This document shows positions 55,310 to 64,000 of a DNA stretch of 64,000 nt, piece after piece. A program made the position numbers and the translations under genes. The notes under the pieces are model-generated. The model saw nothing but the letters and a program-made list of their open reading frames with translations, did no database searches and was not told the DNA's origin. The stretch is from Anaerobaca lacustris (lineage in GTDB: Bacteria > Planctomycetota > Phycisphaerae > Sedimentisphaerales > Anaerobacaceae). Position 1 is the first letter of the stretch. The number at the start of each line of letters is the position of its first letter. The stretch is from assembly GCF_030012215.1 (NCBI RefSeq), contig NZ_JASCXX010000006.1, positions 1 to 64,000 on the forward strand, read 5' to 3'.

Positions 55310-55546
55310 TCAGGATGGCCGGAGCCTGCTGTGACCGGTTGCGGCCTGCGTCCTCGCGCCGGCGCCGACGGCAGGGCTGTCGTGCAGGTCAGGAAGGCGT
55401 GGCTTCGGCCCCGAGGACGCTTGCGTCGCCGATGCGCCGTCGCGCACGATGCCGTCGCGGAGGGAGCCTATGGAGCGCCACAGATGCAGGATCAGGTAGA
55501 GGATACCGATGCTGCAAAGGACGTCTGTGAGTATGCTGTCCATCAT
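55310..55546 (-). CDS. Possible small membrane protein, candidate Pho-regulated gene
   Basis: A 78-residue frame starting at the ATG complementary to 55544-55546, with AGGGG 5 nt upstream. The first 22 residues form a hydrophobic segment (MMDSILTDVLCSIGILYLIL), then a basic, Pro/Ala-rich tail. No family is recognised and the tail composition is typical of GC-rich non-coding frames, so coding is uncertain. What favours it is position: a six-unit Pho-type repeat array with a -10 box points directly at it. The transcript could instead be a regulatory RNA. Confidence 0.35.
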   Translation of the reverse strand: MMDSILTDVLCSIGILYLILHLWRSIGSLRDGIVRDGASATQASSGPKPRLPDLHDSPAVGAGARTQAATGHSRLRPS

Positions 55547-55634: not shown

Positions 55635-55710
55635 AACATACGGCTTGAGCGTTAGGGTGGAGTTAGTCATATGTTAGAACTTGGTTAGGATTGTGTTCGT
55701 GTTGTGTTAG
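55635..55710 (-). promoter_or_regulatory. Leftward Pho-box array with -10 element
   Basis: On the plus strand GTTAG begins at 55651, 55662, 55673, 55684 and 55706, with GTTCG at 55695: six units at an exact 11-bp period. Read on the minus strand this is CTAAC(N6) repeated, as before pstS and the porin. A TATGTT -10 box (55640 to 55635) follows the last unit after 10 nt, the same spacing as at pstS. A separate perfect TATAAT (55789-55794) on the plus strand may serve phoB. Confidence 0.6.
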
Positions 55711-55858: not shown

Positions 55859-56542
55859 ATGGCAAAACCAACTGTTCTTGTCGTGGACGACGAAGAAGAC
55901 ATCCGGGAACTGGTCGAGTTGAACCTGCGCCGCGAGGGGTATCAGGTCCTGGCGTGTGAAACGGGCGAGCAGGCCCTGAACCGAGTTTTGTCCAAGGCCC
56001 CTGACGTGGTCATTCTCGACCTGATGCTGCCGGGGATCGACGGACTGGAGGTCTGCAAGCGATTGAAGGCCGATCCCAAGACCCAGAAGATCGCTGTGGT
56101 GATGCTGACGGCCAAGGGGGAGGAGGCGGACATCGTTACCGGCCTGGAACTGGGCGCCGACGACTACGTGACGAAGCCCTTCAGCGGCAAGGTCCTCGTG
56201 GCCCGCGTGCGGCGTCTGCTGCGAAAGCAGCGTGATGAGACCGACCTGCAGGCGGTCGTCAGAATCCACGAACTGACCATCGATCCGAGCCGGCATGAGG
56301 TCCTGATCGGCGAACGAGCGGTCGCTCTGACGCTGACGGAATTCAACATCCTGCACACGCTGGCCCGCAGGCCGGGGCGGGTCTTCACACGCTATCAGAT
56401 CGTGGATTCCATCCACGGCAGCGATTACCTCGTGACGGATCGGGCCGTGGACGTGCAAATCGTATCTCTCCGCAAAAAACTGGGCCCCTGTGCGAAATAT
56501 ATCGAGACGGTCAGAGGCGTTGGATATCGGTTCACGGACTGA
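55859..56542 (+). CDS. phoB: PhoB-type phosphate response regulator
   Basis: An OmpR/PhoB-class regulator of 227 residues. The receiver domain has Asp10/Asp11, phospho-acceptor Asp54 (VVILDLMLP) and VTKPF; the winged helix (about 130-226) has LTLTEFNILHTLARRPGRVFTR and DVQIVSLRKKLG...VRGVGYRF. Gene content downstream (phosphate transporters, PhoR-like kinase, porin, pstS) identifies it as the phosphate-starvation activator. It should bind the CTAAC-type 11-bp repeats found upstream of pstS, the porin and in its own upstream region. Confidence 0.9.
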   Translation: MAKPTVLVVDDEEDIRELVELNLRREGYQVLACETGEQALNRVLSKAPDVVILDLMLPGIDGLEVCKRLKADPKTQKIAVVMLTAKGEEADIVTGLELGADDYVTKPFSGKVLVARVRRLLRKQRDETDLQAVVRIHELTIDPSRHEVLIGERAVALTLTEFNILHTLARRPGRVFTRYQIVDSIHGSDYLVTDRAVDVQIVSLRKKLGPCAKYIETVRGVGYRFTD

Positions 56543-60255: not shown

Positions 60256-62031
60256 ATGTTCCGAAGGAAACTGATCTGGCAACTCTATCCGTCCTTCCTG
60301 GCCACCACCCTGCTGGCCTTGATCGCGGCGACCACGTATTCGTCGTACACGCTGCGCACGTTCTATCTCGATCAGCTCAAAGAGGAGCTTCGCCTGGTAG
60401 GGGATGTGGCAGCCTCGCAGGTGGCGTTGACGCTTCGCACGGGGACCTCGGCTGACGTGGATGCCCTGTGCAAGACGCTGGGGCAGGCCGGCAGCGGCCA
60501 GATGCGGCTGACCGTGATCGCGTCCGATGGAAAGGTCCTGGGCGATTCGGACGAGAACCCCGCGCTGATGGAGGACCACTCCAATCGGGCCGAGATCATC
60601 GAGGCGATTGCCGATGGGCTCGGGCGGTCGATGCGATTCAGCCCGACGCTCGGCCGAAACATGATGTACGTGGCGGTGCCGGTCAGCGAAGACGGCCAGC
60701 CGGTCGCCTTCGTTCGCATGGCGGTCCCCGTTACGGAGATCGAGCGCGCTCTGAGCCGCGTCTACGTCACGATCATCTGGGCCGGAGCGATTGTTGCCGT
60801 GTGTGCGGCCGTTCTGAGTCTGCTGATCAGCCGCCAGATCAGCGAGCCGATCACGCGCATGAAGCGCATCGCCCAACTGTTTGCACAGGGGCAGCTCGAT
60901 ATGCGGGTCCCCGACGCCGGCGCCGCGGAGCTGGATGAGCTGGCCAGGGCGTTGAACGAAATGGCCACGCAGCTTCAGGACCGGATTCTCACCATTACCC
61001 GGCAGCGAAACGAGGTAAAGGCGATTCTCTCCAGCCTGGGCGAGGGTGTTCTGGCCGTGGATTCCCGGGGTCGGATCGTGAGCGTCAATAAGGCGGCCGC
61101 CCAGTTGCTGGGCATCGACCCGATCGCTGCGCAGGGGCGCAGTATCGAGGAAGTCGTCCGCAACGTCGGATTGCAGCAGTTCGTTCGCCGGACGCTGGAA
61201 GGCGATCAGCCTGCCGAGGGCGATATCTCCTTCCCTGAAGAGGGGGGGCGGTTTTTCCACGTCCACGGGGCGCCTCTGGCCGATCCGCCGACCGACCGAG
61301 CCGGGGCGGTGATCGTGCTCAGCGACATGACGCGGATCCACCGTCTGGAGAGCCTGCGGCGGGACTTCGTCGCCAATGTTTCGCACGAGTTGAAGACCCC
61401 CGTGACGTCGATCCAGGGCTTCGTGGAGGCCCTGCTGGACGGCCGGCCCGACGACCCCGAGCAGACTTCGCGGTATCTGGGGATCATCGCCAAGCATGCC
61501 GAGCGTCTCAACGCGATCATCGACGACTTGCTGAGCCTGTCCCGCCTCGAGGAAGGCGCCGAGAAGCGAGCGATCCTGTTCGAGGACGTCAAGCTTCGTC
61601 CCGCTCTTGAAGCGGCGGTCGAGTTGGCGGGCGTCCGCGCCGAACAGAAGCGAATCAGGGTGGAATTGTCCTGCGACGATTCGATCCGCGCCAAGATCAA
61701 TGCGCCGCTTCTGGAGCAGGCGATCGTCAATCTTGTGGACAACGCGGTCAAGTACAGTGACGAAGGGACGACGGTGTGGATCGAGGTCCAGCCGCAGGAC
61801 AAGGGGGTCGCGATCCGTGTGAAGGACACCGGCTGCGGCATCCCGCGGGAGCATCTGGCCCGGATCTTCGAGCGGTTCTACGTCGTGGACAAGAGCCGGA
61901 GTCGCAAGTTGGGGGGCACCGGCCTCGGTCTGGCCATCGTCAAGCACATCATCGGCGTCCACGGCGGCCATATTGGCGTGGAGAGCATCCCCGGAAAAGG
62001 CAGCACTTTCACCCTGCATCTACCCCAGTGA
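60256..62031 (+). CDS. phoR: PhoR-type phosphate sensor histidine kinase
   Basis: Membrane histidine kinase of 591 residues. Spans at about 10-32 and 170-195 enclose a periplasmic domain (about 33-168, longer than the tiny loop of enterobacterial PhoR). HAMP (about 195-250), PAS (260-350; ILSSLGEGVLAVDSRGRIVSVN), the phospho-acceptor FVANVSHELKTP with His377, and the ATPase domain (VNLVDNAVKYS, GGTGLGLAIVKHI) follow. Although separated from phoB by two transporter genes it is clearly its partner. Confidence 0.9.
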   Translation: MFRRKLIWQLYPSFLATTLLALIAATTYSSYTLRTFYLDQLKEELRLVGDVAASQVALTLRTGTSADVDALCKTLGQAGSGQMRLTVIASDGKVLGDSDENPALMEDHSNRAEIIEAIADGLGRSMRFSPTLGRNMMYVAVPVSEDGQPVAFVRMAVPVTEIERALSRVYVTIIWAGAIVAVCAAVLSLLISRQISEPITRMKRIAQLFAQGQLDMRVPDAGAAELDELARALNEMATQLQDRILTITRQRNEVKAILSSLGEGVLAVDSRGRIVSVNKAAAQLLGIDPIAAQGRSIEEVVRNVGLQQFVRRTLEGDQPAEGDISFPEEGGRFFHVHGAPLADPPTDRAGAVIVLSDMTRIHRLESLRRDFVANVSHELKTPVTSIQGFVEALLDGRPDDPEQTSRYLGIIAKHAERLNAIIDDLLSLSRLEEGAEKRAILFEDVKLRPALEAAVELAGVRAEQKRIRVELSCDDSIRAKINAPLLEQAIVNLVDNAVKYSDEGTTVWIEVQPQDKGVAIRVKDTGCGIPREHLARIFERFYVVDKSRSRKLGGTGLGLAIVKHIIGVHGGHIGVESIPGKGSTFTLHLPQ

Positions 62032-62090: not shown

Positions 62091-62144
62091 TTAACACGAT
62101 CCTAACGTGAAATTGATCTGCGCCTAACAATTCACGACTACGAC
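62091..62144 (+). promoter_or_regulatory. Candidate Pho box of the porin gene
   Basis: TTAAC (62091), CTAAC (62102), a degenerate unit TTGAT (62113) and CTAAC (62124), all in an 11-bp register. TACGAC (62139-62144), a weak -10, starts 10 nt after the last unit. Lies 84 nt upstream of the porin start. Confidence 0.55.
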
Positions 62145-62227: not shown

Positions 62228-63595
62228 ATGGGTATGGGAACATGGAGCATCTGTGGCAGCATTGCCGGGGGATTGTTGTTGACGTTCGGCTGGGCGACGG
62301 TCTGCGGCGCCGACGAACTGGGCGACCTCAAACAGCAGCTTGAAGACCAGAAAACGCGGTCGGCTGAGCTTGAGGATCGGATCAACCAGCTCGAAGCCCG
62401 GCAGAAACTCAAGGAACGGGCGATGGGCGAGGAAATCGCCGCCTTGAAGGACTCCCACGTTGAGAAATCACCTACGGATCTACAGGCGTATTGGAGGGAT
62501 GGGCTTCGATTCAAGACGGCCGATGATATGTTCCAGTTGCGGATCGGCGGGCGCATGATGTTCGACTGGCTCTGGATCAGCGAAGACGACGACATCAAGG
62601 CCGCCATTGGCGATCAGGAAGACGGTGTCGGGTTCCGGCGGGTGCGCTTCTATATGGCCGGCAGCATCTACGAGAACGTGGACTACATGCTGCAGCTCGA
62701 TTTTGCCGGCGGGGCCACCGCTCTCAGGGATGCCTACATCGGCCTGACGGATTTCCCGGTAGGCAAGCTGCGTATGGGCCAGTTCAAGGAGCCCTTCAGC
62801 CTGGAAGAGTTGACCAGCAGCAACTACATGACGTTCGTCGAGAGGGCGCTGCCCAACACGTTCTCTCCCAGCCGCAACGTTGGTTTCATGCTGCATGACG
62901 CCGCTTTGGAGAACCGCATGACCTGGGCCGCCGGGCTGTTCCGCGACACCGACGATACCGGCCTGGCCATAGACGACGGCGGCTACAACCTTACGGGTCG
63001 CATCACCGGCCTGCCCTGGTACAACAACAAAGGCGAATCGTTGATACACCTCGGCGCCGCCTACAGCCACAGAAACCCGGATGAGACGCTGCGCTATCGC
63101 GCCCGCCCGGAAACGCCTCTGACGGACCGCTTCGTCGACACGGGCGCCATCCCTACTGATCGAGCGAATCTGCTCGGGCTGGAGGCCGCCTGGCTGGCCG
63201 GGCCGCTCTCCATCCAGGGCGAATACATCCGCGCGAACGTGGACCGAAGCGGGGCCTCCGACGTCGATTTCAGTGCGTATTACGCACAGGCCAGCTACCT
63301 TCTGACCGGCGAACGCCGTTCCTACAGCACCTCCTCCGGCACGTTCGGTCTGGTCAGGCCGAAGAAGAACTTCCGTTTCGGCGGCGGTCCCGGTGCCTGG
63401 GAGCTCAAGGCCCGCTACTCCGGCATCGATCTGAACCACAAGGACATCCGCGGCGGAGAGCTGGACAACTTCAGCGCCGGGGTGAACTGGTACCTCAACC
63501 CCAACATGCGGATCATGTGGGACTACATTCGTGCCGATCTCGACGATGTGGGGCAAGCCGATGTCCTGCTGATGCGGCTGCACGCCTTTTTCTGA
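62228..63595 (+). CDS. Phosphate-selective porin (OprO/OprP family)
   Basis: Outer-membrane beta-barrel of 455 residues. Signal peptide (about 1-28), then a coiled coil (about 30-80; LGDLKQQLEDQKTRSAELEDR) as in many planctomycete porins, then the OprO/P barrel opening with GLRFKTADDMFQLRIGGRM and ending with aromatic Phe (LLMRLHAFF). The family region FGGGPGAWELKARYSGIDLN is clear near residue 385. It should let phosphate across the outer membrane. It lies between phoR and pstS behind its own candidate Pho box. Confidence 0.85.
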   Translation: MGMGTWSICGSIAGGLLLTFGWATVCGADELGDLKQQLEDQKTRSAELEDRINQLEARQKLKERAMGEEIAALKDSHVEKSPTDLQAYWRDGLRFKTADDMFQLRIGGRMMFDWLWISEDDDIKAAIGDQEDGVGFRRVRFYMAGSIYENVDYMLQLDFAGGATALRDAYIGLTDFPVGKLRMGQFKEPFSLEELTSSNYMTFVERALPNTFSPSRNVGFMLHDAALENRMTWAAGLFRDTDDTGLAIDDGGYNLTGRITGLPWYNNKGESLIHLGAAYSHRNPDETLRYRARPETPLTDRFVDTGAIPTDRANLLGLEAAWLAGPLSIQGEYIRANVDRSGASDVDFSAYYAQASYLLTGERRSYSTSSGTFGLVRPKKNFRFGGGPGAWELKARYSGIDLNHKDIRGGELDNFSAGVNWYLNPNMRIMWDYIRADLDDVGQADVLLMRLHAFF

Positions 63596-63620: not shown

Positions 63621-63663
63621 TTAACTGCGGTCTAACACGATGCTAACATTCTCTGCGTACAAA
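63621..63663 (+). promoter_or_regulatory. Candidate Pho box and promoter of pstS
   Basis: TTAAC (63621), CTAAC (63632) and CTAAC (63643): three units with an exact 11-bp period. TACAAA (63658-63663) follows after 10 nt and can serve as -10, so the array takes the place of the -35 box as in known Pho promoters. Confidence 0.7.
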
Positions 63664-63689: not shown

Positions 63690-64000
63690 ATGCAGAAGAT
63701 GCTGATAAGTGCCCTGTTGTTTTCCCTGTTGGTCGGTGGCTCGGTTCAGGCGCAGACCCTTCAGATCGAGGGCTCGACGACTGTCGGGCCGATCGCGGAT
63801 GCTTTCGCCGAGTACTTCAAGCGGGTCTATCCCGACCTCAACATCACCGTCAAGAAGACCGGCAGCGGCGACGGGGCGGCGGCCCTCGCCGATGGGCGTT
63901 GTGACATCGCGACGATGAGCCGGTTCATGAAGGACAAGGAGTTCAAGGACGCGGTGGGCAACGGGGTCTATCCGGTCGCCCACGTCGTGGCGATGGACGG
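63690..64000 (+). CDS. pstS: Phosphate ABC transporter binding protein PstS (5' part, cut by window end)
   Basis: The first 103 codons of a periplasmic phosphate-binding protein, still open at the window end. ATG 63690 has AAAGGAG 8 nt upstream; the ATG at 63686 is in another frame. A signal peptide ends SVQAQT, then IEGSTTVGPIADAFAEYF and KKTGSGDGAAALADGRCDIA, the PstS phosphate-binding loops (STT, TGSGDG). It directly follows a three-unit Pho box. The permease and ATPase genes would be expected just beyond the window. Confidence 0.85.
   Translation, partial: MQKMLISALLFSLLVGGSVQAQTLQIEGSTTVGPIADAFAEYFKRVYPDLNITVKKTGSGDGAAALADGRCDIATMSRFMKDKEFKDAVGNGVYPVAHVVAMD

Follow-up and report, generated by a model that had tools for sequence, protein, structure and literature searches.

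A predicted Pho box of 11-bp-period YTAAC repeats in the order Sedimentisphaerales

Introduction

In Bacillus subtilis, the PhoP box consists of TTAACA-type repeats that come about every helical turn, with a spacing that is said to vary more. In the case of Escherichia coli, PhoB acts on tandem repeats placed 10 bp ahead of a -10 element of the type TAN3T/A (PMC1906773), and the pho box has been redefined as two 11-nt units on which PhoB sits head to tail (PMC4415409). The cyanobacterial SphR box, CTTAACCT, is made up of three or more repeats separated by 3-bp linkers (PMC1906773). Here we compare these systems with arrays of CTAAC-like repeats found in the window (the whole analysed stretch of DNA, 64,000 nucleotides), which a preliminary description had taken for the Pho box of this lineage.

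Repeat arrays in a phosphate gene cluster

The arrays belong to one gene cluster. It starts with a small ORF on the minus strand, followed on the plus strand by a phoB-like gene (55859-56542) for the presumed binder of the arrays, two genes for Na/Pi cotransporters with PhoU domains, a phoR-like sensor kinase gene (60256-62031), a phosphate porin O/P gene (62228-63595; 206.3 bits against PF07396, Porin O/P, and thus above the gathering cutoff of 20.9) and pstS, which starts at 63690 and continues beyond the window end at 64000. Past this end, pstS is followed by pstC, a second permease ORF at the position of pstA, pstB and phoU.

Upstream of pstS, on the plus strand, three units (63621-63647) follow each other with an 11-bp period: TTAAC at 63621-63625, CTAAC at 63632-63636 and CTAAC at 63643-63647. 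After a further 10 nt comes the -10-like element TACAAA (63658-63663), whose position is conserved in relatives. Thus, the three units, the exact period and the 10-nt distance to a -10 box held as first described. In the case of the porin, the claimed four-unit register at 11 bp does exist (62091-62128, plus strand; TTAAC at 62091, CTAAC at 62102, TTGAT at 62113 and CTAAC at 62124-62128), but the unit at 62113 is degenerate, leaving three good ones. Likewise, the spacing of 10 nt to the -10 position is present, but the element found there, TACGAC (62139-62144, plus strand), is weak and lacks the final T/A of TAN3T/A. The strongest array was absent from the preliminary description. It comprises six units, one of them CGAAC, on the minus strand (55651-55710), lies between the small ORF and phoB, divergent from the latter, and is conserved in the genus; 10 nt past its last unit stands the -10-like element TATGTT (55635-55640, minus strand). 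In the window's genus, this divergent array was the only one seen next to phoB, with none in phoB's own orientation.

The core of these arrays is nearly the same as that of the B. subtilis PhoP box, which comes from a different phylum. Like the E. coli box (CTGTCAT-N4), they are head-to-tail direct repeats of 11 nt placed 10 bp before the -10 element. The E. coli unit upstream of phoB, CTGTCATAAAT, and the lineage unit CTAACAnAAnn have C1, T2, C5, A6, A8 and A9 in common, whereas positions 3-4 read GT in E. coli and AA in the lineage. With the SphR box the arrays share the TTAAC core, the 11-bp period and at least three units (PMC1906773), but the extension and the regulator are other ones. 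The likeness to 11-bp direct repeats of PhoB and SphR in other phyla, as proposed initially, is borne out (PMC1906773, PMC4415409). As in described Pho boxes, at least two head-to-tail units at 11 bp and a genome-wide association with phosphate genes are found here, and the position about 10 bp upstream of TAN3T/A is found at pstS (TACAAA) and at the small ORF (TATGTT). The architecture is already known; the novelty lies in an operator specific to the lineage and in the small ORF.

Chance expectation and whole-genome scans

With at most three mismatches allowed, the three-unit pattern had 9 matches in the window, all of them inside the three arrays, where shuffled sequences gave 0.76 on average (at most 4 in a single shuffle). 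Perfect three-unit matches in the 5.73-Mb genome were limited to 63621 (plus strand) and the array at 55651-55688 (minus strand), both in the cluster. When two mismatches were allowed, the genome contained 17 matches against 27 for the reversed control, i.e. no enrichment, so that weight can be given to near-perfect arrays alone.

A set of 23 pstS sites, several from the genus but none from this genome, served to build a sequence-only model, R1. Over the 5.73 Mb, it returned three matches at E<=10: the pstS array at 63621, the porin array at 62091 and the divergent array at 55671 (minus strand). The preliminary description had suggested a genome scan, in which arrays scattered at random without a link to phosphate genes would speak against a Pho box. 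Such scattering was looked for and not found; in this genome R1 matches occur in the phosphate cluster only.

Pattern search, as distinct from R1, yielded some leads elsewhere in the genome. On contig C2, units followed by N10 and a -10 element stand before a gene for a Ppx/GppA domain III HD protein (C2:156358) and before one for a ferritin-like protein (C2:165002; Pfam matches below cutoff). A partial array at C30:22885, with one perfect unit, two partial ones and a wrong -10 spacing, precedes a gene with a VTC domain (polyphosphate polymerase-like) and is likewise a lead only. The sites C1:21242, C24:84495, C5:123228, C15:43650, C26:3120 and C30:56428 were dropped, as they do not combine three good units with N10 and a -10 element.

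Conservation in relatives

When 30 pstS upstream regions, including that of the window, were scored for three units, N10 and TAnnnT, 28 reached 15-18 of 18 points. Under the same score, 6 of 6000 shuffles reached 15 and none went higher. Of the remaining two regions, one (L079) is truncated where its contig ends. Four of the 28 (L084, L085, L086 and L088) fit better if the array is placed one unit further on; in the last three of these, the -10-like element then follows 11 nt, not 10, past the last unit.

A larger set of 80 named pstS loci, mostly from Phycisphaerae/Sedimentisphaerales MAGs, was scanned more permissively, with gaps of 9-11 allowed; here 61 loci reached 15 (59 with N10, 2 with N9). 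The two sets have many identical or closely related genomes in common, and are for this reason not independent. Distances between YTAAC pairs in the 80 upstream regions, taken without any geometric scoring, accumulate at 11 bp (71 pairs), 22 bp (45) and 33 bp (21), while every other distance up to 45 bp occurs at most 3 times. TAnnnT past the last unit peaks at an offset of 10 (25 cases). Similar YTAAC arrays also stand before pstS in single loci labelled Krumholzibacteria (L190), TA06 (L182) and UBP1 (L186), which might mean that such arrays are more widespread or that the pst cluster has been transferred.

R1 was further applied to 40 relatives, and the first ORF was read behind the 28 matches lying away from the training pstS genes. 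Thirteen of the 28 are phosphate genes: PhoB (7), Na/Pi transporter (3), porin O/P (2) and a second PstS (1). The others comprise 2 small ORFs of the phoB-divergent kind, 2 DUF3450 genes and 8 unrelated or unclear ORFs, with no ORF in reach in 3 cases. Pfam checks covered the two porins, one of the Na/Pi transporters and one DUF3450 protein, the remaining names coming from reading the sequence. The DUF3450 genes behind Pho-like arrays belong to loci L224 and L225 of relatives G020 and G050, the Pfam check concerning L224.

Could the repeats be a product of chance or base composition, with no regulatory role? The missing genome-wide enrichment of the two-mismatch pattern over its reversed control points in that direction. 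A chance origin is contradicted by the distance spectrum, the conserved N10, the shuffles, the cross-trained genome scan and the recurrence before phosphate genes, and we regard chance as having almost no likelihood left. Altogether, the R1 scan, the phosphate genes of the relatives and the PhoB-operator geometry support the initial reading, and the CTAAC repeats are almost certainly the PhoB switch (Pho box) predicted here for the order Sedimentisphaerales.

Regulators and predicted mechanism

The PhoB-like protein scores 251.1 bits against the equivalog TIGR02154, below the cutoff of 296.2, though this is still its best NCBIfam match. The PhoR-like protein also stays below curated cutoffs, with 310 against 334.2 for TIGR02966 (PhoR) and 394.2 against 400 for NF046044 (PnpS). 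Since these scores fall short of the NCBIfam equivalog cutoffs, although the families are among the best matches, we use the names PhoB-like and PhoR-like.

Alignment to E. coli PhoB shows R193, T217 and R219 kept in the window protein and in the aligned cluster PhoBs of relatives. The E. coli stretch H198-I-R200-R201, by comparison, aligns with Q-I-V-S of the window protein and with Q/M-I/V-V-S/G of the relatives' cluster PhoBs, so that Arg201 is replaced by Ser/Gly and His198 by Gln/Met. In E. coli PhoB, Arg201 contacts, and thereby reads, the G of the box. We infer that the change from GT to AA at positions 3-4 of the box may be paired with this change of the recognition helix. A paralogue, L109, has Tyr at the position aligned with Arg201.

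This genome encodes a second close PhoB-like regulator at C30:51950 (plus strand). Its gene is divergent from an MFS gene preceded by a partial array at C30:51735 (minus strand), with N10 and TAATGT (L223); this array is a lead from the pattern search rather than from R1. The best NCBIfam matches of the MFS protein are PgtP/UhpC-type transporters, below cutoff. The paralogue could bind the arrays, which would then be the operator of another OmpR-family regulator that also controls phosphate genes. The presence of such a close paralogue divergent from a partial array fits with this, as does the general preference of OmpR-family regulators for tandem repeats. However, the arrays precede phoB orthologues in many relatives and share a cluster with phoB and phoR, and, while the arrays are order-wide, a second close paralogue (E<=1e-60) was present only in this genome (G000), G004 and G005. 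We therefore consider a different OmpR-family owner of the arrays quite improbable.

The architecture is the same as that of the E. coli and SphR boxes, for which reason activation by a PhoB-like regulator in place of a -35 element is the best explanation. Under phosphate starvation, the PhoR-like kinase would phosphorylate the PhoB-like regulator of the same cluster. PhoB molecules would then line up head to tail on YTAAC half-sites, 11 bp or about one DNA turn apart, replacing the -35 element, and with the last half-site 10 nt before the -10 element they would recruit sigma-70 RNA polymerase. Such a mechanism is ordinary for PhoB-type regulators. Very probably, then, the arrays serve this lineage as its Pho box, and the PhoB-like protein of the cluster, activated by the PhoR-like one, would turn on the pstS operon, the phosphate porin and the gene of a small protein on the opposite strand, divergent from phoB.

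A small ORF divergent from phoB

The small ORF is unannotated (55310-55543, minus strand) and encodes 77 aa, of which the N-terminal 33 or so are conserved. The conserved part starts at 55543 (minus strand) and is preceded by AGGGGTG. The ORF is kept in all five other genomes of the genus that were examined. An HMM built on 11 seed peptides was used for a six-frame search of 61 genomes and found it in 14 of them (own included); with one further named locus this makes 15 copies, 6 of them from one genus. In most of the genomes the ORF neighbours phoB. Outside the seed, it occurs in G033, G023, G036 and G029, in all four divergent from phoB with an array in between. In G043, G026 (the genome of named locus L122) and L152, it lies upstream of porin and pstS instead.

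A Pho-like array is present within 350 nt upstream in 14 of the 15 copies (weak in G023 and G007, and lacking in G026), where the link to the box is not independent for the seed peptides of G021 and G043, as it was the box model that led to them. The best three-unit register before the small ORF in G003, G021, G033, G023 and G029 lacks a complete TAnnnT at N10.

Hydropathy maxima of 1.1-2.3 make a membrane segment probable but not certain. Changes at the three codon positions (51/24/52) are only moderately coding-like, and searches of Pfam (E 0.01) and NCBIfam (E 0.001) gave no match. The six-unit array probably controls the gene of this putative protein. More tentatively, and with the balance rather against it, the genome's longest Pho array may drive an undescribed small protein, conserved among some Sedimentisphaerales and probably associated with the membrane, with a feedback effect on PhoR or on the adjoining Pst or Na/Pi transporters. 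In E. coli, the 34-aa protein YoaI is transcribed under PhoR-PhoB and is reported to connect PhoR-PhoB with EnvZ-OmpR (PMC11853020); as a small protein under PhoB control it resembles the one predicted here, the likeness being one of regulon position only.

Conclusions

Sedimentisphaerales is represented here mainly by metagenome bins, and a literature search at the level of titles and abstracts found no earlier description of a Pho box for Planctomycetota or for this lineage. The operator matrix, YTAAC at 11 bp followed by N10 and TAN3T, can be used for predicting phosphate regulons in this order. The change from GT to AA in the box, together with that of the PhoB recognition helix, offers a directly testable pairing. 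Finally, it was the arrays, and not annotation, that revealed the putative small protein gene.
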